In this document: piece by piece, positions 3,404 through 54,214 of the stretch
Layout of the letters: each line of letters opens with the position of its first letter
How positions within the stretch are numbered: position 1 is the stretch's first letter
NCBI RefSeq assembly: GCF_013389595.1
Contig: NZ_CP058306.1
Coordinates: forward strand, 1,550,001-1,614,000
Direction of reading: 5' to 3'
From: Flavobacterium sp. I3-2
Lineage (GTDB): Bacteria; Bacteroidota; Bacteroidia; Flavobacteriales; Flavobacteriaceae
DNA: 64,000 nt
Program-made: the position numbers and the translations under genes
The notes under the pieces: generated by a model
What the model saw: only the letters and a program-made list of their open reading frames with translations
Database searches by the model: none
Told to the model about the DNA's origin: nothing

Positions 3404-3478
3404 ATGAATTTTATTAAGCATCATACAATGAAAAATATGTGGGTTTTTACCGACAGAGGTTTTGTATGCGCTAAATAA
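3404..3478 (+). CDS. Candidate leader peptide 1 of the osmC leader
   Basis: A 24-codon ORF with A-rich sequence before its ATG. It begins MNFIKHHTMKNMWVF and contains two adjacent His, internal Met at residues 9 and 12, and Trp at 13. Codons 17-19 (GAC AGA GGT) contain CAGAGG (3454-3459), exactly complementary to CCTCTG (3507-3512) in the 5' arm of the terminator that follows. A ribosome stalled around codons 12-13 would leave that antiterminator segment free, as expected of an amino-acid attenuator. The sensed amino acid is uncertain (Met, His or Trp). Too short for codon statistics; the evidence is placement and complementarity. Confidence 0.5.
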   Translation: MNFIKHHTMKNMWVFTDRGFVCAK

Positions 3479-3503
3479 ATTTATCAAAATATAGCTAATT
3501 AAG

Positions 3504-3535
3504 AATCCTCTGCACATGTAGAGGATTTTTTTTTT
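3504..3535 (+). terminator. Intrinsic terminator 1 in the osmC leader (attenuator candidate)
   Basis: Stem AATCCTCT (3504-3511) pairs with AGAGGATT (3520-3527), extendable by G-U and C-G to a tetraloop, followed by about ten T. It lies 25 bp after the first short ORF and upstream of a second ORF/terminator pair, so it probably acts as a conditional terminator rather than marking a gene end. Confidence 0.7.
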
Positions 3536-3549
3536 GAATTAAAAATAAT

Positions 3550-3609
3550 ATGATGACGATTAATAAAAATTTTAAGATGATGTGCCATTATTCGAAGTTT
3601 CGAATGTAA
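3550..3609 (+). CDS. Candidate leader peptide 2 of the osmC leader
   Basis: A 19-codon ORF, MMTINKNFKMMCHYSKFRM, with five Met (residues 1, 2, 10, 11, 19) and a Cys directly after the central Met pair. The 3' part overlaps a perfect inverted repeat (ATTCGAA and TTCGAAT, 3590-3605), which could be a pause hairpin. A second intrinsic terminator follows 42 bp later and then the osmC start. The Met-Met-Cys content would suit sensing of sulfur amino-acid supply. It could also be chance; no independent coding evidence is available. Confidence 0.42.
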   Translation: MMTINKNFKMMCHYSKFRM

Positions 3610-3651
3610 TGTTCAAATGTGATGTGATTTAATATGTTAAGTGTTTAATAC

Positions 3652-3686
3652 AATCCTTTTGAGCTTTTTCAAAAGGATTTTTTTTA
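3652..3686 (+). terminator. Intrinsic terminator 2 directly upstream of osmC
   Basis: An 11-bp perfect stem, AATCCTTTTGA (3652-3662) with TCAAAAGGATT (3669-3679), and a long T run that ends about 10 bp before the osmC ATG at 3696. A terminator this close to a start codon is best explained as a regulatory terminator. Its 5' arm AATCCTTT can also pair over 8 bp (one G-U) with the 3' arm of terminator 1 (3520-3527), so the two hairpins may be mutually linked. Confidence 0.75.
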
Positions 3687-3695
3687 TAGAATAAA

Positions 3696-4157
3696 ATGAG
3701 TTTACAAAATATATCAGTTTTAGGTTTTTCAAGCAACGACGCACAATTTGTCGTGAAATCTAAAGAATTAAGTATCAAAATTAATAATCAAATTGTAAGT
3801 GATGAATCAGCCGATGGTAATGGTCCGTTGGAGTTTTTACTTGCCGGAATTGCCGGTGCAATTAACGCGGTTGGGAAAATTATTGCTCGCGAACAAAATT
3901 TCGATTTGCAATCTATTCAGGTTGAAATAACTGGAGTTATTGAATCTAAAAAATCTGACGGTATTAAAACGCGTTCTCGTGCAGGATTCAAATCCATTGA
4001 TGTGATTATTAAACCATCTACAAATGCTTCGTTAACCGAGATTAAATATTGGATGGATGAAGTAAAAGCACGTTGTCCAATCTATGATAATTTAACCAAT
4101 GCAACTCCGGTTGTGATGACGGTTGTTAAAGATTACAACGTTTCAAAAGTTGCATAA
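3696..4157 (+). CDS. OsmC/Ohr-family protein lacking the first redox cysteine
   Basis: The 153-residue product has the OsmC layout: N-terminal beta strands, a central helix starting at GPLEFLLAGIAGAINAVG (about residues 43-60), and a C-terminal strand-helix part with CPIYDNL. OsmC and Ohr peroxidases use two cysteines. Here only Cys127 remains; the position usually holding the first Cys on the central helix appears to be Ala55. It is therefore unlikely to be a classical thiol peroxidase and may bind or modify a sulfur or acyl metabolite. The gene stands alone behind two leader ORF/terminator units and a palindrome shared with the methionine operon, which points to sulfur amino-acid metabolism. 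Family confidence is high, function unknown. Confidence 0.85.
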   Translation: MSLQNISVLGFSSNDAQFVVKSKELSIKINNQIVSDESADGNGPLEFLLAGIAGAINAVGKIIAREQNFDLQSIQVEITGVIESKKSDGIKTRSRAGFKSIDVIIKPSTNASLTEIKYWMDEVKARCPIYDNLTNATPVVMTVVKDYNVSKVA

Positions 4158-35876: not shown

Positions 35877-36833
35877 TTAAAAAACTTCTTGCGCGATTGC
35901 TTTAATCGAATCTGATTTGCTCATAGAATAATAATGCACCACCGGAAATCCGGCAGCAATTAATTTCTTACTTTGGTTAATGCACCATTCAATTCCCAAT
36001 TGTTTCACCGCAGCGTTATCTTTTGCTTTTATGGTTTCAATTACCAAATCATCGGGTAAGTCAACATGGAAACGGTGTGGAATTAAATTCAATTGATTTT
36101 TCGTGGCTAAAGGTTTCAATCCAGGAATAATCGGAACTGTAATTCCTGCGGTTCTGCATCTTTCTACAAAATCAAAAAATTTCGAATTATCAAAAAACAT
36201 TTGAGTTACTATATAATCTGCACCGCAATCTATTTTATGTTTCAAGAAATTTAAATCAGTTTCAAAGTTCGGAGCTTCCATATGTTTTTCAGGATAAGCT
36301 GCCACACCAACGCTAAAATTGGTTCGGTGCGAATTTTCCAAATCTTCATCTAAATAAATTCCGTTATTTAAATCATTAATTTGCGAAACCAATTCCGATG
36401 CATATTTATGCCCATTTTTTTCAGGTTTAAAATACATTTCGCTTTTTACCGCATCGCCACGAAGTGCCACTACATTGTCAATTCCAAGAAAATCCAAATC
36501 AATTAAAAAATTCTCGGTATCTTCTTTTGTAAATCCGCCACATAGAATATGTGGAACCGCATCAACTTGAAATTTATTCTGAATGGCTGAACAAATTCCA
36601 ACTGTTCCTGGGCGTTTTCGAACCACTTTTTTCTCAAGTAATCCATCTCGAACTTCTTTGTATTCATATTCTTCCCGATGATACGTTACATCAATAAACG
36701 GTGGATTAAATTCCATTAACGGTTCAATCGTATTAAAAATACATTGAATATTTTGTCCTTTCAACGGCGGTAAAATCTCAAACGAAAACAAAGCCTTTCC
36801 GTTCGCATTTTTAATATGTTCAGTAACTTTCAT
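35877..36833 (-). CDS. metF: 5,10-methylenetetrahydrofolate reductase
   Basis: A 318-residue FAD TIM-barrel enzyme reducing methylene-THF to methyl-THF, the methyl donor for MetH. The N-terminus FSFEILPPLKGQNIQ (Glu19 in the FExxPP motif), then IDVTYHRE, HILCGGFTKEDTENFL and ADYIVTQMFFDN mark the family. I use the ATG at 36833: the longer form begins inside an intergenic repeat and has no family similarity. It is the last gene of the methionine operon, downstream of metH. Confidence 0.95.
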   Translation of the reverse strand: MKVTEHIKNANGKALFSFEILPPLKGQNIQCIFNTIEPLMEFNPPFIDVTYHREEYEYKEVRDGLLEKKVVRKRPGTVGICSAIQNKFQVDAVPHILCGGFTKEDTENFLIDLDFLGIDNVVALRGDAVKSEMYFKPEKNGHKYASELVSQINDLNNGIYLDEDLENSHRTNFSVGVAAYPEKHMEAPNFETDLNFLKHKIDCGADYIVTQMFFDNSKFFDFVERCRTAGITVPIIPGLKPLATKNQLNLIPHRFHVDLPDDLVIETIKAKDNAAVKQLGIEWCINQSKKLIAAGFPVVHYYSMSKSDSIKAIAQEVF

Positions 36834-36847
36834 TTTAATTTCATTTT

Positions 36848-36924
36848 GGGCGTTTCCCTTTGGGTCGGGCTTTTCGTTACAAGCTTTTGTTTCACAAAAG
36901 GCTTTGCACTTCAATCCCTAACGC
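36848..36924 (-). repeat. Flavobacterium-type interspersed intergenic repeat
   Basis: Read on the minus strand this element starts GCGTTAGGGATTGAAG, contains a 9-10 bp inverted repeat around GTGAAAC (AGCCTTTTGT / ACAAAAGCTT) and ends AAAGCCCGACCCAAAGGGAA then ACGCCC. I recognise this layout from a palindromic repeat scattered between genes in Flavobacterium genomes. It is noticeably more GC-rich than its surroundings and sits between metH and metF. No second copy was spotted in the window. Confidence 0.6.
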
Positions 36925-36953
36925 AAGTTTTAATCACAATTAGTTTTCAATTT

Positions 36954-39900
36954 TCATTCGTTGATATTTGGTTGCAACCATTTGGTAGCTTTTTCAACAG
37001 AAATATTTCTGCGTTTTGCAAAATCTGAAACTTGGTCTGACTTAATTTTTCCAACACCAAAATACTTAGCATTTTCATTCGCAAAATAATATCCAGAAAC
37101 GGATGAAGCCGGCCACATAGCTAAACTTTCGGTTAATGAAACACCAATTTCATTTTCTATATTTAAAACATTCCAAATGGTTTCTTTTTCTAAATGGTCT
37201 GGACAAGCCGGATATCCTGGTGCCGGACGAATGCCTTTGTACGATTCGCTTATTAAATCATCGTTAGATAAAGTTTCGTTTGCAGCATAACCCCAAATTT
37301 CTTTTCGAACTTTTTCGTGTAAAAATTCTGCAAAAGCTTCGGCTAATCTGTCCGCTAAAGCTTTAACCATTATCGAGTTATAATCATCATTGGCAATTTC
37401 AAATTCTTTTGCTTTTTCTTCAACTCCAAAACCTGTAGTTACACAGAACAATCCGATATAATCTTGAATTTGAGTTGCTTTCGGAGCAATAAAATCAGCT
37501 AAAGCTATATTTGGAACCTTTCCTGATTTTTGTGCTTGTTGACGTAAGGTTAATAATTGATATTTTTGGTTTTCGTCAATCAACTCAATATCATCATCGT
37601 TAATTTGATTGGCAGGAAAAATGCCGATAATTCCTTTGGCAGTAAACCACCTTTCTGAAATTATCTGAGCCAACATTTCTTGGGCATCGTTAAATAAATT
37701 GGTAGCTTCTTTGCCAACAACGGTGTCGTTTAAAATTGCTGGATATTTCCCGAATAATTGCCACGACCTAAAAAATGGAGTCCAATCGATATACGGAACT
37801 AAATCTGCTAATTCAACTTCTATTTTTTTCTTACCTAAAAAATTTGGCTTTTGAATTTGTTGCGTTTTCCAATCTATTTTAAATTTGTTTTTTCGAGCTT
37901 CATCAATTGATAAGAAATTTTTATCTCTTGCTCTAGATAAAAAGTCGTCTCGTAATTTGTTGTATTCATTACGAATTTCTTCTTTATAAATCTTCTTTTT
38001 TTCGGGTTGCAATAAATCGTTAATTACGGTTACAGCTCGTGAAGCATCGTTTACGTGAACCACAGTTTCTGAATATTCTGGAGCGATTTTTACAGCCGTA
38101 TGTGCTCTTGAAGTTGTTGCTCCACCAATCATAATCGGGATTTTACTTCCAACCTTTTCTAGTTCTTTGGTTAAATAAACCATTTCATCTAACGAAGGTG
38201 TGATTAAACCACTAAGGCCAATAATATCAACCTTTTCTTTTATAGCAGTTTCAATGATTTTTTCGGGTTGAACCATCACGCCTAAATCTATAATCTCAAA
38301 ATTATTACAAGCTAAAACTACCGAAACGATGTTTTTTCCAATATCATGAACATCACCGCGGACAGTTGCCATTAATACTTTTGGAGCCGAACCTTTATCT
38401 GAAGTTGATGGATTTTGCTTCTTTGATTCTTCAATAAACGGAAGAAGATATGCAACAGCTTTTTTCATAACACGTGCTGATTTTACAACTTGAGGTAAAA
38501 ACATTTTTCCTGAACCGAATAAATCGCCAACAATGTTCATTCCGTTCATTAAATAGGTTTCAATTACTTCAATGGGTTTTGAAACGAGTAAACGAGCCTC
38601 TTCAACATCTTGTTCAATAAATTGGTCAATCCCTTTTACTAAAGCATGATTAATTCTTTCTTGAACGATATTATTTCGCCATTCTAAAACTTTAACTTCT
38701 GTTATTTTAGCATCGCTTTTTAAATTTTCTGCATAGTCTAATAAACGTTCGGTAGCATCATCACGTTTGTTTAGTAAAACATCTTCTACATAAATCAAAA
38801 GTTCCGAATCAATTTCGTCATAAATTTCAAGTAGTTCAGGGTTTACAATTCCCATATTCATTCCATGTTGAATTGCATGATATAAAAAAGCAGCATGCAT
38901 GGCTTCGCGAACTTTGTTGTTGCCACGAAATGAAAAAGAAACGTTGCTAACTCCGCCTGAAACGTTTGCAAAAGGTAAATTTTCTCTAATCCATTTTGTC
39001 GCTAAGAAAAAGTCTAATGCATTGTTGTTGTGTTCTGCCATTCCGGTTGCTACCGGAAATATATTTGGATCGAAAATAATATCTTGTGCAGGAAATTTTA
39101 CGTCGTTGACTAAAATGTCATATGAACGTTTGCAAATGTTAATTCTACGTTGTAACGTGTCGGCTTGACCGATTTCATCAAAAGCCATCACCACAACCGC
39201 GGCACCGTAACGTTTTATTAATTTGGCATGATTGATAAAGTTTTCTTTTCCTTCTTTTAAACTGATGGAGTTTACAATTCCTTTTCCTTGAATGGTTTGT
39301 AAACCCGCTTCGATGATTTCCCATTTTGAACTATCAATCATAATCGGAACTCGAGCAATATCTGGTTCAGCAGCAATTAAATTCAGAAAATGAACCATTG
39401 CTTTTTTACCATCTAACATGCCTTCATCCATATTGATGTCGATAATTTGCGCTCCATTTTCTACCTGATTGCGTGCAATTTCTAAAGCTTCGTTATATTT
39501 TTCTTCTTTAATTAATCTAAGAAATTTACGTGAACCTGTTACGTTGGTACGTTCGCCAATATTTATGAAATTAGAATTCTGAGTTACGAAAAGTGGTTCT
39601 AATCCAGAAAGAGCTAAAATTTTTGGTTGTTCTTTTTCATTATGATTATTTCTTTCGATTTGAATTTGCTCCACCGCTTCAGAAATAAGTTGAATATGCT
39701 TTGGAGTAGTTCCGCAGCATCCGCCAATAATCTGAACTAAATCTTCTTTTAAATAATCACGAATCAATTGCTGCATTTCTTCGGCCGTTTGGTCGTATTC
39801 ACCAAAAGCATTGGGCAAACCTGCATTTGGATGCGCCGAAATATTTACCGATGTATGTAAAGCCAATTGTTTTAAATAAGGTTTTAATTGCTCGGCACCT

Positions 39901-40649
39901 AACGCACAATTAAATCCAATGCTCAAAAGCGGAATGTGGGAAATGGAAATCAAAAAGGCATCAACTGTTTGTCCGGAAAGTGTTCTTCCGGATGCATCGG
40001 TAATGGTTCCCGAAACCATTATTGGAATTTCAATATTTCGTTCTTCACGAACTTCATCAATCGCAAATAATGCCGATTTTGCATTTAAGGTATCAAAAAT
40101 GGTTTCTACTAAAAGTAAATCGCAACCACCATCAATTAAAGCTTCAACTTGTTGTTTGTAAGCTACGCGAAGTTCTTCAAAAGTAATTGCTCGGTATCCA
40201 GGATTATTTACATCTGGTGACATGGATGCTGTTCGGTTTGTTGGACCAATTGAACCAGCTACAAATCTTGGTTTATTTGGTGTGATTGAAATAAATTCAT
40301 CACATACTTCACGAGCTATTTTAGCCGATTGAAAATTTAAATCGTACACATAATCTTGTAAATGATAATCAGCCATTCCGATGGATGTCGAAGAAAACGT
40401 ATTGGTTTCAATAATATCGGCTCCGGCTTGTAAATATTTTCGATGAACTTCTTTAACAGCTTGTGGTTGCGTAATCGAAAGCAAATCATTATTTCCTTTT
40501 AATGGATATTCGAAATCTGCGAATTGTGTTCCACGGAAATCTGCCTCAGAAAATTTGTATTCTTGAAGCATGGTTCCCATGGCGCCATCTAAAACGAGCG
40601 TTCGAGTTTTAATGATTTCTTGAATATTTGGTTTTGGATTAGTTTTCAT
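36954..40649 (-). CDS. metH: Cobalamin-dependent methionine synthase
   Basis: A full-length 1231-residue MetH that transfers the methyl group of methyl-THF to homocysteine through cobalamin. Module 1 (about 1-330) binds homocysteine with zinc ligands Cys248, Cys311 and Cys312 ([15 protein letters not shown]). Module 2 (about 355-640) binds folate ([16 protein letters not shown]). The cap and B12 domain (about 650-890) has DVHDIGKN with axial His768. The reactivation domain (about 900-1231) carries [12 protein letters not shown] for SAM binding. All key residues are present and the gene is not split as in some relatives. Overlaps metZ by 11 bp, so the pair is translationally coupled. Confidence 0.97.
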
Positions 40650-41823
40650 TTCCTAAAGCTTGATTGATTTCTGAATAAATATCTTCTAGGTTTTCTAACC
40701 CAATTGAAATTCGGATTAAACCTTCGGTTAAATTAGCTGCTTTTAATTCTTCTGAATTTAATTTACTGTGCGTTGAAGAAGCTGGATGTGTGACTATGGT
40801 TCTGGTATCGCCAAGGTTTGCAGAAACAGAGAAAAGTTTGATGGCATCGATAAATTTCTTACCTGCTTCTTTATCGCCTTTTAGTTCAAAAGCAATGATG
40901 TTTCCACCGAATTTCATTTGTTTTTTTGCGATTTCGTATTGTGGGTGTGATTTTAAGAAAGGATATTTTACCGATGCAACCGCAGGATGATTTTCTAAGA
41001 ATTCAGCAACTTTTAATGCGTTTTCTGAATGTTTTTCAACTCGAAGAGCTAAGGTTTCTAAACTTTTAGATAAAACCCAAGCATTAAACGGAGATAGGGA
41101 AGAACCTGTGTTTCTTGAGAATAAATATATCTCACGAATTAAATCTTTTCTTCCAACTGCAATTCCACCTAAAACACGTCCTTGACCATCGATTAATTTA
41201 GTAGTTGAATGTACCACAACATCAGCGCCGAATGTAATTGGTTTTTGAATGATTGGTGTTGCAAACGTATTGTCGATTACTAAAATTAGATTGTGTTTTT
41301 TAGCAATATTTCCTAAAAGTTCTAAATCTAAAATTTCAACTCCTGGATTTGTTGGTGTTTCTGCAAATAAGATTTTTGTATTTGCATTTATTTTTGATTC
41401 GATAGTTTCTGGTTCATTACAATTAAAATAAGATGTGGTAATATTCCATTTAGGAAAATATTTGGTAAACAAGGTATGTGTTGAACCAAAAATACTACTT
41501 GCCGAAACGATGTGGTCGTCTGCATTTAAGAGAGCAGCTAAAACATTATAAACAGCTGCCATTCCGGTAGCAAAAGCTAAGCCGTCTTCGGCGCGTTCTA
41601 ATTTTACTATTTTTTCAACAAGTTCTGTAGTGTTAGGATTGCTGAATCTGCTGTAAATATTTCGGTCTTTTTCTTCGGAAAATGAACTTCTCATGTCTTC
41701 TGAATCTTCAAATACAAAGCTCGATGTTAAATATAATGGTGTAGAATGTTCTAGAAATTGCGATCGTTCTGTTTGTGTTCTGATTGCGATAGTTTCGTCG
41801 TTGAAATTTTCTTCTGTTTTCAT
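40639..41823 (-). CDS. metZ: O-acyl-homoserine sulfhydrylase / trans-sulfuration PLP enzyme
   Basis: A 394-residue Cys/Met-metabolism PLP enzyme. [19 protein letters not shown] and [12 protein letters not shown] form the PLP-phosphate and substrate region, Asp184 ([10 protein letters not shown]) contacts the pyridine nitrogen, and Lys209 in HSTTKL forms the internal aldimine. The length and the segment [10 protein letters not shown] fit MetZ-type sulfhydrylases, which make homocysteine directly from O-acyl-homoserine and sulfide; cystathionine gamma-synthase (MetB) is the alternative. Lies between the thrA-like gene and metH in the methionine operon. Confidence 0.88.
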
Positions 41824-41842: not shown

Positions 41843-44248
41843 TTATTTTTTTTCTGCTAATCTTAAAATATCTCCAAAAACACCACGTGCAGTAACATTT
41901 GCACCGGCTCCGGCACCTTGAATAATAATTGGATTTTCACCGTATGATTCGGTATAGATTTCAAAAAATGAATCGGAACCTTTTAATTGTCCTAAAGCTG
42001 TATTTGCAGGAATGCTGATTAATTTGGTTTCTAAAACACCTTTGTTTTGATGTAAATCACCTGATAATTCACCAACGTAACGAAGTACATGATTGGCTTG
42101 TTGCGAATCTTTAATGGTTTGGAAATGTTCGTTTAATTGAGTTAAATTTTCTAAAAACTCAGTTACTTCTAAATGCTGAAAAGCTTTTGGTATTAAATTT
42201 TCTACTTTTATTTCGTCAAATTCATTTTCCAAATCTAATTCACGAGCTAAGATTAAAAGTTTTCGTGCAACATCATTTCCAGATAAATCTTCTCTTGGGT
42301 CAGGTTCAGTAAATCCTTTTGATATGGTTTCGTTTAAAACGTCACTAAAATTTTTATTTTCATCTGAGAAATGATTGAATAAATAACTTAAGGTTCCTGA
42401 AAAAACACCTTTTATTTTGGTAATGTTTTCACCCGAAAGATGTAATAATTTTATGGTGTCAATTAGTGGTAAACCTGCACCAACATTAGTTTCGTATAAA
42501 TAATCTTTATGATTTGTTTCAAGAGTTTTTCTTAGCTTTTTATAAAAATCGAATGAAACCGTGTTTGCAATTTTATTTGATGAAACTAAATCAAATCCAT
42601 TTTCAGCAAGTGTGATGTAATTTTCTATGAACTTTTGTGAAGCCGTATTATCAATAGCAATTAAGTTTTCTAAATGATGATTTTTCGCGAACTCAATAAC
42701 TTCGTTTATTTGATACGAAATGCTTTTCTCAGCAATTTCTTGTTTCCAATTATCAGAAATGCCATTTTTATTTAAGATGATTTTCTTTGAATTTCCGATA
42801 GCAAAAATATTCAGTTTGATGTTTTTTCTCGATTCAATGTTTTTTGCCGATTCAATGATTTGATTAATTAAAGTTCCGCCAACTAATCCGTGACCAAAAA
42901 TGGCTAAATTTATTTTTTTAGAAATTCCGAAAATTTGTCCGTGAATAACATTTAAAGCCTTTTTAGTTTCGGTTTTATTTACCACAATACTTACATTTTT
43001 ACCGGTTATCGTATTATTAAATAAAATAGGAATGATGTTATTTTGAATTAGTGCGTTGTATGGTTTATGGAAAGTACTTAAATCTTGCCCGATGATTGAA
43101 ATTACTGCAATATCATTGTTAATTGAAATTCGGTTTACATCTTTTGTGTAAAAATCTCTTTCAAATTCTTTTTCTAACGCAATCACAGCTTGCGTTGCTT
43201 TATTTTTTTCGACAATAAATCCAATTCCTCTTTCTGATGAACCTTGAGAAATTACGCTTACGCTGATATTGTTTTCAGAAAGAGCATTGAAAATTCGTGC
43301 ATCGATACCAACTTTTCCAAGCAAACCTCTACCTTCAAAATTTATTAAAGCTACATCAGATAAAACAGATAATGATTTAATTCCGTTTGGAGTCGGTTTT
43401 GCTGAAATTAATGTTCCGTTTTCGTTCGGTTTAAAAGTATTTTTTATTCGCAACGGAATATTTTTTTCTAATAACGGAATAATCGTTTTTGCATGTAAAA
43501 TCGAAGCTCCGAAATTTGCAAGTTCATTTGCTTCATTAAAATTTAATTCTTCAATTTTTTGAGCATCTTTGACCCAATCTGGATTTGCTGTGAAAATTCC
43601 ATCAACATGTGTAAAGTTCTGTAATTCTTCAGCTTCTAAATAATTAGCTAGTAAAGCGGCAGAATAATTACTTCCGTTTCTCCCTAAAGTTGTGGTTTCG
43701 TTATTTTGTGTAGCTGCAATGAAACCTGTAACTATAGCAACCGTTTGAGTTGGAATGTTTTTAAAATAAGCCTGTGTTTTATTTTTTGAAAGATGTTCGA
43801 TTGGTTGCGCATTTCCAAAATTATCATCAGTTACAAATAAATCTCGACTGTCTACAAAAACACTTTTTTGATTTTGTGTATTCAGCGTTTCTGCTACAAT
43901 TTTAGCCGAAATAATTTCGCCTTGAGCCAAAACATTATCTTTAATTTTTAAAGAATAATCTCCTAATAAATTCACGCCCTCAAAGATTTTTTCTAAATCT
44001 GAAAATTCTTTCGATAAATCGATTATTTTATGTTGAGGTTCATTTTTAAAATCTTTAAATTCAGATTTATAGTTTTTTGTTTCTTTTGCTAATTCTAATA
44101 TTTTTTCTAACTTATTTGTTGTTTCATCAATTGCCGAAACAACAATTGCTAATTTTTTTTCTTGTGCGTTCGATTTAATAATTTCGATAACGTTATTAAA
44201 TGCCCCGTAATATGCTAATGACTTTCCGCCGAATTTTAATATTTTCAT
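41843..44248 (-). CDS. ThrA-like aspartokinase/homoserine dehydrogenase with altered kinase active site
   Basis: An 801-residue ThrA/MetL-type protein. The C-terminal homoserine dehydrogenase (about 446-801) is intact: GHGLVGG NAD-binding loop (452-458), NVGAGLPLI and TEPDPREDLSGNDVARK. The N-terminal aspartokinase (1-290) and ACT domains (about 300-440) are recognisable, but conserved kinase residues differ: KFGGKS in place of KFGGTS (Lys9), GRNGSN in place of GRNGSD (Asn194), and FTHVDG in place of WTDVDG. The kinase is therefore probably inactive or altered, leaving a homoserine dehydrogenase dedicated to methionine synthesis. It starts 6 bp after metX. Confidence 0.9.
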   Translation of the reverse strand: MKILKFGGKSLAYYGAFNNVIEIIKSNAQEKKLAIVVSAIDETTNKLEKILELAKETKNYKSEFKDFKNEPQHKIIDLSKEFSDLEKIFEGVNLLGDYSLKIKDNVLAQGEIISAKIVAETLNTQNQKSVFVDSRDLFVTDDNFGNAQPIEHLSKNKTQAYFKNIPTQTVAIVTGFIAATQNNETTTLGRNGSNYSAALLANYLEAEELQNFTHVDGIFTANPDWVKDAQKIEELNFNEANELANFGASILHAKTIIPLLEKNIPLRIKNTFKPNENGTLISAKPTPNGIKSLSVLSDVALINFEGRGLLGKVGIDARIFNALSENNISVSVISQGSSERGIGFIVEKNKATQAVIALEKEFERDFYTKDVNRISINNDIAVISIIGQDLSTFHKPYNALIQNNIIPILFNNTITGKNVSIVVNKTETKKALNVIHGQIFGISKKINLAIFGHGLVGGTLINQIIESAKNIESRKNIKLNIFAIGNSKKIILNKNGISDNWKQEIAEKSISYQINEVIEFAKNHHLENLIAIDNTASQKFIENYITLAENGFDLVSSNKIANTVSFDFYKKLRKTLETNHKDYLYETNVGAGLPLIDTIKLLHLSGENITKIKGVFSGTLSYLFNHFSDENKNFSDVLNETISKGFTEPDPREDLSGNDVARKLLILARELDLENEFDEIKVENLIPKAFQHLEVTEFLENLTQLNEHFQTIKDSQQANHVLRYVGELSGDLHQNKGVLETKLISIPANTALGQLKGSDSFFEIYTESYGENPIIIQGAGAGANVTARGVFGDILRLAEKK

Positions 44249-44254
44249 ATAAGT

Positions 44255-45199
44255 TCAATTAAAGTGGTTTTGTAAAAAATTTGACAATTGTTCGTATTCA
44301 ATTAAAAAAGCATCGTGTCCGTGAATTGAATTTATAACGTGATACTCGTTTTTATTTCCGTTGTTTTTTATGAGTTTGTATGTTGTGCGTTGTTCTTTTT
44401 CAGTAAACATATAATCAGAATCAATCGAAATCATCACAATATTTGTTGATGTTGTTTTTACAAATTCTTTAAAATCACTTACAGATGTTTCACTTCCAAT
44501 GGTTTTCAATAAATGATTCATGAGTTTGTAAGCTTTAAGTTGAAACCGATTGTTTAATGATTTACCATGATAATCTAACCAGTTTTCAACTTCGTATTTT
44601 TGCTCTTTTTCATTAAATTTATTTTCAAATTTTTGATTGATTGATTCTGGTGTTCGATACAAAAGCATGGCATGTTTTCTGGCACCTTCAATCGGATTTA
44701 AAGAATGATTTAGAATGGCTTCCTGAATATAAACATTGCCAATCAACCAATCCGAAGCTTTATTTGTGCAAGCAATTGGAATTAGTTTTTCAATTCGTTG
44801 TGGTTGTTGAATTGCCATTTCCCAAGCAATAGAGCCGCCTAAACTACCTCCGATTATCGCAAATAAGTTTTTTATTTTTAGTAAATTTATTCCATCCCAA
44901 AAAAGTTTTGCAATTTTATTCGTAGTTTGATTTTGATAATCTTCAATCAAATTACTCGTAATTCCATCATATCCATTTCCTGGAATATTAAAAGCTAGAA
45001 CGCAAAATTTATTTGTATCTATGGTTTTATTCGGTCCTATTAAATTTTTCCACCAACCATTTTCGCCTGTAATTTTACTGTTTCCTGTTAATGCGTGATT
45101 GACCAAAACTATCGGAGCAGAATTTATTTCCTGACCAAAAACTTCATAGAATATTTCAATGTCTTTTTTTTGATTATTTCTGACTGTAATCTTTTTCAT
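44255..45199 (-). CDS. metX: Homoserine O-acetyltransferase family protein
   Basis: A 314-residue alpha/beta hydrolase-fold acyltransferase that activates homoserine for sulfur incorporation. The nucleophile is Ser119 in IIGGSLGGSIAWE, with Asp262 (SIDSDYMFT) and His295 (IHGHDAFL) completing the triad; VLVNHALTGNSK is the usual oxyanion region. Acetyl- versus succinyl-CoA use cannot be decided. The start must be the ATG at 45199; an upstream in-frame codon at 45244 lies inside the attenuator hairpin and gives an N-terminus foreign to the family. First structural gene of the methionine operon. Confidence 0.92.
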   Translation of the reverse strand: MKKITVRNNQKKDIEIFYEVFGQEINSAPIVLVNHALTGNSKITGENGWWKNLIGPNKTIDTNKFCVLAFNIPGNGYDGITSNLIEDYQNQTTNKIAKLFWDGINLLKIKNLFAIIGGSLGGSIAWEMAIQQPQRIEKLIPIACTNKASDWLIGNVYIQEAILNHSLNPIEGARKHAMLLYRTPESINQKFENKFNEKEQKYEVENWLDYHGKSLNNRFQLKAYKLMNHLLKTIGSETSVSDFKEFVKTTSTNIVMISIDSDYMFTEKEQRTTYKLIKNNGNKNEYHVINSIHGHDAFLIEYEQLSNFLQNHFN

Positions 45200-45215
45200 A
45201 GCAATTTGTCTAAAT

Positions 45216-45252
45216 AAAAAAAGTCCCTTGAGTAAATTACCCAAGGGACTTT
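45216..45252 (-). terminator. Attenuator terminator of the methionine operon
   Basis: On the minus strand the 12-nt arms 45238-45249 and 45223-45234 pair completely, with one G-U wobble that is a pair only in the minus-strand RNA, around an AUU loop, followed by seven U. The gene start is just 17 bp further on, so this terminator must be conditional. Confidence 0.9.
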
Positions 45253-45274
45253 TTTATAAGTATATAAATTAAGT

Positions 45275-45352
45275 TCAAGTATGGGCGTAAAGATTCGAAT
45301 GCATCATTTGCATCATCATCATAGCCATCATTTGTACTTGAAAAATATTCAT
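45275..45352 (-). CDS. Methionine-rich leader peptide of the met operon
   Basis: A 25-codon ORF starting MNIFQVQ. Residues 8-17 read MMAMMMMQMM, eight Met in ten codons, followed by HSNLYAHT and a TGA stop 26 nt before the terminator stem. Segment 1 (TTCAAGTA, 45335-45342, just before the Met run) is perfectly complementary to segment 2 (TACTTGAA, 45274-45281, over the stop codon). Segment 2 and its 5' flank can in turn pair partly with the 5' arm of the terminator. A ribosome starved of Met-tRNA would cover segment 1, free segment 2 and favour readthrough. Methionine supply would let it reach the stop and allow termination. Confidence 0.88.
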   Translation of the reverse strand: MNIFQVQMMAMMMMQMMHSNLYAHT

Positions 45353-45383
45353 AATTTTAGTTGTTTTGATTTTTTAATCAGTG

Positions 45384-45415
45384 CAAATATTATGATTTAT
45401 TTTCTATAAAACAAA
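45384..45415 (-). promoter_or_regulatory. Promoter of the met operon leader
   Basis: On the minus strand TTTG (45412-45415), a 20-bp spacer, and AATATTTG (45384-45391, one mismatch to TAnnTTTG). The transcript would start about 25 nt upstream of the leader ATG. Confidence 0.55.
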
Positions 45416-45421
45416 TTTATA

Positions 45422-45438
45422 TTAGATTTTAAATCTAA
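45422..45438. promoter_or_regulatory. 17-bp palindromic operator candidate upstream of the met operon
   Basis: TTAGAT-TTTAA-ATCTAA (8-bp arms counting the centre) lies 6 bp upstream of the -33 element. Its outer arms and spacing are identical to the palindrome at 3339-3355 before osmC. Confidence 0.62.
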
Positions 45439-45493
45439 AATATGGTTGTTTTTAATATGTTTATAGGATTATTTTTCTAAATATTTATTTTAT

Positions 45494-53393: not shown

Positions 53394-53467
53394 GGTTTGG
53401 TAGTTCAGTTGGTTAGAATACATGCCTGTCACGCATGGGGTCGCGGGTTCGAGTCCCGTCCAGACCG
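53394..53467 (+). tRNA. tRNA-Asp(GUC), copy 1
   Basis: A 74-nt tRNA. Acceptor GGTTTGG pairs with CCAGACC (one G-U); anticodon loop CTGTCAC gives GUC; T-loop GGTTCGAGTCC. CCA is encoded at 53468-53470. The 3' flank holds a small GAGTTTAAGAAACTC hairpin shared with copy 4. Confidence 0.97.
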
Positions 53468-53534
53468 CCAGAAGAGTTTAAGAAACTCAAACTTACGACG
53501 TGTAAGTTTTAAATTGAAATAGAATAAGAATCTT

Positions 53535-53608
53535 GGTTTGGTAGTTCAGTTGGTTAGAATACATGCCTGTCACGCATGGGGTCGCGGGTTCGAGTCCCGT
53601 CCAGACCG
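53535..53608 (+). tRNA. tRNA-Asp(GUC), copy 2
   Basis: Identical 74-nt sequence; followed by CTAAG, so CCA is not encoded. A terminator follows. Confidence 0.97.
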
Positions 53609-53619
53609 CTAAGATTAAA

Positions 53620-53648
53620 TAGCCCTTCGGTTACGAGGGGCTTTTTTG
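53620..53648 (+). terminator. Terminator after tRNA-Asp copy 2
   Basis: AGCCCTTCG pairs with CGAGGGGCT (9 bp, one wobble) around GTTA, followed by T6. Confidence 0.8.
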
Positions 53649-53698
53649 CCCTCTTTGATTTTTTATTTAATCTATTAAGATTTAAGTGTTTAAATATT

Positions 53699-53772
53699 GG
53701 TTTGGTAGTTCAGTTGGTTAGAATACATGCCTGTCACGCATGGGGTCGCGGGTTCGAGTCCCGTCCAGACCG
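53699..53772 (+). tRNA. tRNA-Asp(GUC), copy 3
   Basis: Identical 74-nt sequence, no encoded CCA. No TAnnTTTG promoter is visible in the 50 bp between the preceding terminator and this gene, so it may depend on readthrough. Confidence 0.96.
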
Positions 53773-53823
53773 CAACTCTTTTTTGAGGAATAATAGTTGT
53801 GTTGTTAAGGTACGCGAGTACCT

Positions 53824-53840
53824 GGTTTAGTAGTTAGACC
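53824..53840 (+). pseudogene. Probable internally deleted tRNA-Asp relic
   Basis: GGTTTAGTAGTT matches the first 12 nt of the tRNA-Asp genes at 11 positions and is directly followed by AGACC, which matches the last part of the acceptor 3' strand. It looks like a tRNA gene that lost nucleotides 13-67. It lies in the same orientation in the tRNA cluster and is followed by a terminator. Short, so chance is possible. Confidence 0.4.
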
Positions 53841-53844
53841 AATG

Positions 53845-53876
53845 AAAAGCTTTCCAATTTTTTGGAGGGCTTTTTT
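53845..53876 (+). terminator. Terminator after tRNA-Asp copy 3 and relic
   Basis: AAGCTTTCC pairs with GGAGGGCTT (two wobbles) and is followed by T6. Confidence 0.75.
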
Positions 53877-53955
53877 ATTTTCAAAATAAGATGATATTGC
53901 AATTGTTTGGTAATAAGTAGATTAAAAAATAGTTGTAAAAAAAGCTTCTGAAGTC

Positions 53956-53985
53956 TTGTAGATGCTAGAAAAGTAACTATATTTG
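53956..53985 (+). promoter_or_regulatory. Promoter of tRNA-Asp unit B
   Basis: TTG (53956-53958), 19-bp spacer and TATATTTG (53978-53985). The sequence after it (CACAGTTGAAAA) matches that of unit A, showing the promoter was duplicated with the tRNAs. Confidence 0.7.
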
Positions 53986-54007
53986 CACAGTTGAAAAACA
54001 AAATTCT

Positions 54008-54081
54008 GGTTTGGTAGTTCAGTTGGTTAGAATACATGCCTGTCACGCATGGGGTCGCGGGTTCGAGTCCCGTCCAGACCG
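54008..54081 (+). tRNA. tRNA-Asp(GUC), copy 4
   Basis: Identical 74-nt sequence with encoded CCA (54082-54084). The following 20-odd bases equal those after copy 1. Confidence 0.97.
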
Positions 54082-54132
54082 CCAGAAGAGTTTAAGAAAC
54101 TCAAAGCCTTTTTAGGTTAAAAAAACAAACAT

Positions 54133-54206
54133 TGGTTTGGTAGTTCAGTTGGTTAGAATACATGCCTGTCACGCATGGGGTCGCGGGTTCGAGTCCCGTC
54201 CAGACC
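54133..54206 (+). tRNA. tRNA-Asp(GUC), copy 5
   Basis: Identical 74-nt sequence, followed by CTAATG as copy 2 is followed by CTAAG; no encoded CCA. A terminator follows. Confidence 0.97.
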
Positions 54207-54214
54207 GCTAATGT

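Follow-up and report, generated by a model that had tools for sequence, protein, structure and literature searches.

A candidate Met-codon transcription attenuator before a flavobacterial metX operon, and its sulfur-amino-acid leader family

Control of methionine genes is usually ascribed to SAM riboswitches, T-boxes or repressors. On the minus strand of a 64,000-nucleotide stretch of the Flavobacterium sp. I3-2 genome (the window), a Met-rich leader ORF is followed by a strong intrinsic terminator and then by metX-thrA-metZ-metH-metF, raising the question of whether translation of the leader sets transcription of the operon. We consider it very probable that a ribosome-mediated transcription attenuator of the trp/his type, sensing charging of Met-tRNA, lies at 45216-45352 (-), and that it belongs to a flavobacterial sulfur-amino-acid family whose members often stand in tandem and mostly carry both Met and Cys codons.

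Anatomy of the metX leader

The initial annotation of this DNA described a 25-codon ORF with eight Met among residues 8-17, an 8-bp perfect complement between the segment before the Met run and the segment over the stop codon, and a 12-bp terminator 17 bp before metX. The ORF was identical on recomputation, and the complement lies where it had been placed, TTCAAGTA (45342-45335) pairing with TACTTGAA (45281-45274). The terminator, AAAGTCCCTTGGGTAATTTACTCAAGGGACTTT at 45252-45220 (-), is present with a seven-T run at 45222-45216, but its stem is longer than described (15 bp by the scanner, 18 bp by RNAfold), and 16 bp rather than 17 separate the T-run from the metX ATG at 45199. Segment 2 has two alternative partners: segment 1, via 45281-45274, or the terminator 5' arm, where GCCCA would pair with UGGGU, and GA and CUU with AAG and UC (Table 1). 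The metX element is single and of the class 2 type described below, with no tandem partner there, and its leader lacks the Cys codons present in most relatives. Bacteroidota promoters have the -7 consensus TAnnTTTG, and a similar element precedes the leader (Table 1); such motifs lie within 100 nt of 14 of the 47 first leaders found in related loci, against 0.12 per shuffled sequence, a weak signal of mild enrichment.

The gene names originally proposed for the operon hold for ThrA, MetH and MetF, which score above their NCBIfam cut-offs, but MetX and MetZ fall below theirs. The product of the operon, Met, is the cognate amino acid of the leader codons. Between metH and metF, on the same strand as the genes, lies a Flavo-1 RNA (RF01705, 51.8 bits) at 36859-36929 (-); Flavo-1 also occurs in four related loci (L047, L053, L065 and L102), in which it runs opposite to the met genes. 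Elsewhere in the window, five consecutive tRNA genes with identical Rfam scores occupy 53394-54207 (+).

Table 1. Positions of leader elements and associated genes in the window
Feature	Coordinates	Strand	Basis and remarks
Leader peptide ORF MNIFQVQMMAMMMMQMMHSNLYAHT	45275..45352	-	25 codons plus stop; sequence read and recomputed scan
Control region, eight Met codons (residues 8, 9, 11-14, 16, 17)	45302..45331	-	read from sequence
Segment 1, TTCAAGTA, immediately 5' of the Met run	45335..45342	-	complement and folding states
Segment 2, over and after the leader stop	45271..45286	-	folding states; 2:3 helix in relatives
Segment 3, terminator 5' arm	45238..45252	-	scanner and folding
Segment 4, terminator 3' arm (to 45220) plus T-run (45222-45216)	45216..45234	-	scan, fold and stem covariation
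Promoter-like -7 element TAATATTTG	45384..45392	-	one extra base relative to consensus; transcription start site inferred
metX, homoserine O-acyltransferase-like, first operon gene	44255..45199	-	best NCBIfam match, under curated cut-off
thrA, bifunctional aspartate kinase/homoserine dehydrogenase I	41843..44248	-	NCBIfam, above cut-off
metZ-like, O-succinylhomoserine sulfhydrylase family	40639..41823	-	best NCBIfam match, under cut-off
metH, methionine synthase	36954..40649	-	NCBIfam, above cut-off
metF, methylenetetrahydrofolate reductase	35877..36833	-	NCBIfam, above cut-off; start inferred
Second element, class 1: leader MNFIKHHTMKNMWVFTDRGFVCAK (3404-3478), terminator (3503-3528) plus T-run	3404..3536	+	R2 match
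Second element, class 2, degenerate: leader MMTINKNFKMMCHYSKFRM (3550-3609), terminator (~3652-3679) plus T-run	3550..3686	+	R3, 26.1 bits
OsmC-like gene after the tandem	3696..4157	+	PF02566, 48.8 bits

Chance does not account for this arrangement. When we scanned for an intrinsic terminator with a short ORF ending at most 130 nt upstream and holding at least 4 Met in 10 residues, the 64-kb window contained no match but the metX leader, and none arose when the window was dinucleotide-shuffled 30 times. The leader RNA folds with z = -7.8 (0/200 shuffles as good). Covariance model R3, built from 34 class 2 sequences with the window excluded, scores the metX element at 70.3 bits (E 2.4e-14), the runners-up in the window being the opposite strand of the same terminator (33.4 bits) and a site at 3550-3687 (26.1 bits). 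We conclude that the Met-rich leader and terminator before metX are confirmed as real.

A leader family across flavobacteria

We sampled relatives as 80 named loci from a MetX alignment (A1); MetX query sequences started at 45196, one codon past the ATG. Applied anywhere in a locus, the scan found a Met-rich short ORF with a terminator on the coding strand in 47 of the 80 loci and on the other strand in 1 (37 and 0 when at least 5 Met were required). The next amino acids in the same scan, coding strand versus other, were Cys (12 vs 2 of 80), Leu (12 vs 3) and Lys (11 vs 2). Class 1 or class 2 elements occur in 50 of the 80 metX loci, 46 of them recognised through the scan and L042, L045, L061 and L071 through strong matches of R1, a class 2 model applied to 37 of the loci and the window; L061 counts among the 47 scan matches through a third leader type only. 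With the element required to lie at most 650 nt upstream of the gene, that gene is OAHS in 39 loci and metX in 6; five leader loci outside this rule (L039, L044, L045, L067 and L071) are absent from these counts.

Searched more widely, R1 had matches in 135 of 150 genus genomes at E 0.01; many of these score low (below ~55 bits), are probably ordinary terminators and are excluded as members. At E 1e-10 it matched 15 of 299 family genomes, from 11 of 236 genera, the window's own genome included, and at E 1e-9 it matched 19 of 246 order-level genomes, all within the family (the non-family share of the 246 is unstated). The best matches from the genus, family and order searches, including the window's own, make up 61 R1 loci. 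The nearest recognised gene by tblastn was OAHS in 55, metX in 3, OsmC in 2 and none in 1 (L161), a recount that supersedes an earlier tally by ORF start (53 OAHS, 3 metX, 2 OsmC, 3 none) and that used only seven references (MetX, ThrA, MetZ, MetH, MetF, OsmC and OAHS), other genes going unnamed. The gap between element and gene is at most 350 nt in 59 of 60 R1 loci, L179 alone exceeding it. The conservation check suggested in the initial annotation came out in its favour: Flavobacterium, Myroides and some other genera have Met-rich leaders and stems that track each other ahead of their metX/OAHS operons, related sequences not being independent samples. A sequence pattern, ATGATGNNNATGATG, was also tried as a locator and was useless, as it matched all 397 family genomes; hisG, sought in the window's own genome for comparison with a his leader, was not found there.

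A frequent layout is a tandem, with a class 1 element upstream and a class 2 element downstream; both elements have a leader ORF and a terminator of their own. Most class 1 leaders (peptides such as MNFTMCNMCMMMWNNPQRKPIA or MKLMMCNMCCMMWKTSAGRSIV) keep the RNA word UCCGCAGAGG/UCCGCAGGG, which pairs with the terminator arm CCUCUGC; in class 2 (for example MKTIVNKMMMCCMMRMCIPICYCQKQRI) the word UAUUGCCAAAAG pairs with CUUUUGGUAA of the terminator. Because the CCGCAG word of class 1 is kept in two reading frames (NPQR versus SAGR), it is the RNA rather than the peptide that is conserved there. A class 1 model containing no window sequence (R2) found, above 47 bits, a class 1 element in 42 of the 61 loci that R1 had chosen for class 2, so tandems are common, although some of these genomes had also fed R1 and R2. 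Tandem counts from the Met scan are too low, since its 4-Met threshold passed over class 1 leaders that have 3 Met together with Cys (L047, L053, L054, L055, L063, L069 and L070). A third type of leader with a terminator (for example MKQNYSNIQVAICKSKTMMCINTMMCVCIC) is found in L060 (5432-5595), L062 (5369-5530) and L061 (7820-7991), in L060 before a second OAHS-like gene. In class 1 leaders such as those of L046 and L060, a Trp codon right after the last Met (MMW) is frequent, with Trp at 4.7x background; this codon may be either a control codon or an RNA constraint.

The initial reading of a single attenuator holds at the window's metX, but relatives are often tandem, and the window itself carries a second, tandem copy at 3404-3686 (+). 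R2's best match in the whole 3.55-Mb genome is the upstream half of this copy (3404-3533 (+), 38.2 bits, E 3.1e-4). The terminator of the degenerate class 2 half was read by eye and in the fold, and this downstream half shows no fold excess (z -0.7). In L034, too, an OsmC gene lies downstream of an element of this kind.

Helices, spacing and a proposed mechanism

In the trp and his attenuators of enterobacteria, helices 1:2, 2:3 and 3:4 alternate, the control codons lie between segments 1 and 2, and the stop codon lies near segment 2. The window element shares this helix logic and this placement of control codons and stop, and differs in the amino acid sensed, in phylum, and in the frequent tandems of its family. 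The initial annotation had ascribed the same logic to the metX leader, and all three helices do track across class 2 loci. We compared native duplex energies with random re-pairing across loci (20000 permutations) in 25 class 2 and 15 class 1 non-redundant leaders, with class 3 leaders (the downstream copies of L060, L061 and L062) standing outside these tests. In class 2, native pairing gave z of -6.2 for 1:2, -6.9 for 2:3 and -9.3 for 3:4, with 0/20000 permutations as good for each; in class 1, 2:3 and 3:4 gave z of -4.4 and -6.4 (0/20000), and 1:2 is weak (z -2.6, 146/20000). Shuffling one partner left native-minus-cross differences of -0.39 to 0.01 kcal/mol in 1:2 and 2:3 against real values of -1.19 to -2.88 kcal/mol, so that composition does not explain the tracking of these two helices.

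Covariation was read from alignment A2, which holds 35 of 38 class 2 leaders (leaving out L036, L079 and L081); its class 1 counterpart, A3, holds 22 of 26 (leaving out L036, L049, L051 and L056). Across A2, the 3:4 helix is paired in 99.3% of cells, with 30 double-changed cells against 7.6 in shuffles, and the 2:3 helix in 88.4%, with 8 against 2.3; 3 pairs of 2:3 carry a double change, no excess over shuffles (124/500 as high). Many individual duplexes do no better than shuffles: compared with dinucleotide shuffles at single loci, p<0.05 was reached in class 2 by 1:2 in 15/39 and by 2:3 in 25/39, and in class 1 by 3/25 and 5/25, respectively. In the window, the energy of the 8-bp 1:2 duplex was reached in none of 200 shuffles. 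The partial complementarity of segment 2 to the terminator 5' arm, also noted at the outset, is predicted to pair with a ribosome on Met14 or Met17, but the duplex (-8.1 kcal/mol) is short and interrupted, with a shuffle p of 0.45. An antiterminator 2:3 exclusive with the terminator is therefore supported at the level of the family and weak in the window alone.

Spacing points the same way as the original proposal that the Met codons are placed to cover segment 1. Over the 35 class 2 sequences, the last Met codon begins 11-32 nt (median 20) upstream of segment 2, and the stop codon starts 0-12 nt past that segment. Judged against the footprint of a ribosome, these distances fit trp/his-type stalling, in which a stalled ribosome would leave segment 2 free and a ribosome at the stop would cover it. 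Folding of the window sequence gave corresponding states. In the absence of a ribosome, helix 1:2 forms ahead of the synthesis of segment 4; when a ribosome occupies Met14 or Met17, segment 2 is paired to the terminator 5' arm (-9.1 kcal/mol); when it occupies the stop, segment 3 is left free and the terminator forms (-24.1). In all completed transcripts folded, equilibrium favours the terminator, which means that antitermination has to be kinetic, decided while transcription is under way.

From this anatomy we infer how stalling, termination, readthrough and a response to Met would proceed in the cell. When charged Met-tRNA is short, a ribosome would stall in the eight-Met run and cover segment 1; segment 2 would then pair with the terminator 5' arm, and polymerase would read into metX-thrA-metZ-metH-metF behind the stalled ribosome's leader. 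With Met-tRNA charged, it would instead go on to the stop and cover segment 2, and the 3:4 terminator would form; were the leader untranslated, 1:2 would form and the terminator would form too. Met shortage should also lower charging of the initiator tRNA and hence translation of the leader, counter to what a Met sensor needs, and a sensor that itself requires initiator Met could give a two-phase response, on if elongation stalls and off if initiation fails. If the mechanism works, it requires coupling of transcription and translation in Bacteroidota, and the leader would make such coupling directly testable.

The very strong terminator, winning at equilibrium, would also suit a fixed partial terminator that sets basal expression, beside which the Met-rich ORF has no regulatory effect. 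A passive terminator, however, needs none of the features conserved here (the Met/Cys runs, the 2:3 and 1:2 helices and the spacing), nor would it lead codon content to follow the downstream pathway, and we regard this explanation as very unlikely.

Met and Cys codons, and known systems

Of the residues in class 1 and class 2 leaders, 22-23% are Met and 7-10% are Cys, ~19-20x and 17-24x their frequencies in long ORFs of the same loci; Met served to find the leaders and Cys did not, and some of the Cys stems from the kept word UAUUGCC. That word also accounts for part of the Cys residues in the 36 of 38 class 2 leaders with at least one. The family is wider than the initial description of a Met-sensing leader, with Cys in nearly all class 2 leaders and mostly Cys-rich members before cysE. 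Metal-binding peptides are also rich in Met and Cys, and the ORFs might accordingly encode functional small peptides, metal-binding ones for example, with the terminator incidental. We find this extremely improbable: conservation of the C-terminal half of class 1 is at the RNA level, across two reading frames, the N-termini vary, and the ORFs precede OAHS, metX, osmC or cysE genes together with tracking attenuator helices.

In F. luminosum (L071), class 1 and class 2 elements with Cys-rich leaders precede serine acetyltransferase-like and cysteine synthase-like genes. The L071 acetyltransferase, used as a query, has matches in 90 of 150 genus genomes; the best 30 loci, together with L071 and L073, formed a cysE set of 32, scanned for at least 4 Met+Cys in 10 residues. 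This rule found 9 leader peptides, mostly Cys-rich, in 8 of the 32 loci and no leader in the other 24, and cysE and cysK homologues follow the leaders in L071, L073 and the leader-bearing loci among the best 30. The median Cys share is 0.75 in the 9 cysE peptides against 0.33 in 85 peptides from 53 met loci (Mann-Whitney p 5e-6, over rows that are phylogenetically non-independent); Cys outnumbers Met in 6 of the 85, and L184 (4 Met, 3 Cys) is the exception among the cysE leaders. Codon content agrees in this way with the pathway encoded downstream. R2 places class 1 elements before cysE in L071, L073 and L182 (50.6-58.9 bits) and in L183 and L184 (90-92 bits), and gave no match to the cysE leaders of L191, L193 and L194, which may be unrelated to the family. 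Upstream of cysE in these three loci and L199 are Cys-containing leaders with terminators, unmatched by R2 there, which are perhaps a separate, independent cysteine attenuator. A connection between absence of cysE and the Cys-free window leader was considered and rejected, as other genomes without a cysE match keep Cys in their leaders.

For the family as a whole we entertain, at a little under even chances, that one RNA scaffold serves as a retargetable sulfur-amino-acid sensor, in which two serial attenuators jointly read the charging of Met and Cys tRNAs, a swap of Met for Cys codons sets the pathway, and the whole occupies the position that the SAM-I riboswitch has in sister lineages. This group of flavobacteria seems to rely on ribosome stalling at Met and Cys codons for its methionine genes, and the occurrence of one scaffold in Met-rich and in Cys-rich versions amounts to a natural codon-swap experiment.

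Canestrari in 2020 reportedly described polycysteine attenuators in mycobacteria. Cys-codon leader ORFs precede cysteine genes in Actinobacteria, and the 2005 paper found no conserved terminator hairpin in the mycobacterial Cys leaders; the runs of Cys codons are alike, whereas the elements here also have an intrinsic terminator, an antiterminator and Met codons (PMC1262725). A Met leader peptide, although a Met-codon attenuator in Bacteroidota was initially called unusual, is not unprecedented: the MetL leader peptide before metBA of Campylobacter jejuni was proposed in 2013 (PMC3847290), and Ribo-seq supports its start site (PMC11955535). By its description, MetL resembles the window leader in being a short ORF that carries Met codons and lies upstream of methionine genes; a short RNA ends past its stop, and stall-dependent antitermination was proposed, as here (PMC3847290). 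Unlike the window leader, it has 20 aa and 3 Met codons and is given for C. jejuni, C. coli and C. doylei only, and the passages on MetL describe no tandem or Cys variant, both of which occur here (PMC3847290). Tandem attenuators are found in Salmonella mgtCBR, with two short ORFs per leader as in our tandems, controlling an operon for a Mg2+ transporter and virulence protein rather than sulfur amino acids (PMC3641672). Within the same genus, 5' leaders of F. psychrophilum gave strong clues for leader-peptide attenuation before amino-acid operons; a methionine leader is unnamed in section 19 of that paper, and the F. psychrophilum copy (L045) may already be in its Table S7 (PMC9723704). Among the open-access papers listed by searches for leader-peptide attenuation with methionine, no title or abstract opening described a Met leader in Bacteroidota. 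What is unusual relative to known attenuators is the tandem arrangement and the swapping of Met and Cys codons, a Met leader itself having already been proposed.

The SAM-I riboswitch (RF00162) senses SAM directly, and in other flavobacteria it stands at the same genes and position as the leaders. With all 80 loci scanned against Rfam, SAM-I precedes OAHS in 19, a leader does so in 39, and both do in 0; 31 leader loci have a SAM-I at another place in the locus, such as upstream of metH in L055, of a second metX copy in L062 or of a fused metX-thrA gene in L097. Neither was found in L040, L068, L089, L098 and L110, two of which have weak R1 matches (26.9 and 30.1 bits). The shared position before OAHS could suggest that the leaders too are metabolite riboswitches or protein-bound leaders (SAM, MetJ-like or T-box) with chance ATG repeats. 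We judge this highly improbable, since the elements match no Rfam family at gathering score in the window or the 80 loci, Rfam models found no SAM-I in the window or its own genome, and the ATG runs are in frame within leader ORFs; scans of the window likewise gave no SAM-II and, over all Rfam families at gathering score, no T-box. If the leaders are ribosome-mediated attenuators, the fact that they and SAM-I alternate upstream of one and the same gene raises the question of when it suits a cell to sense charged tRNA rather than the cofactor. SAM-II riboswitches were seen on the opposite strand in L039 (2520-2580), L034 (2115-2174 (-)) and others; that of L034 lies beside leader elements and before a 417-aa gene whose start is MetK-like, as labelled by eye.
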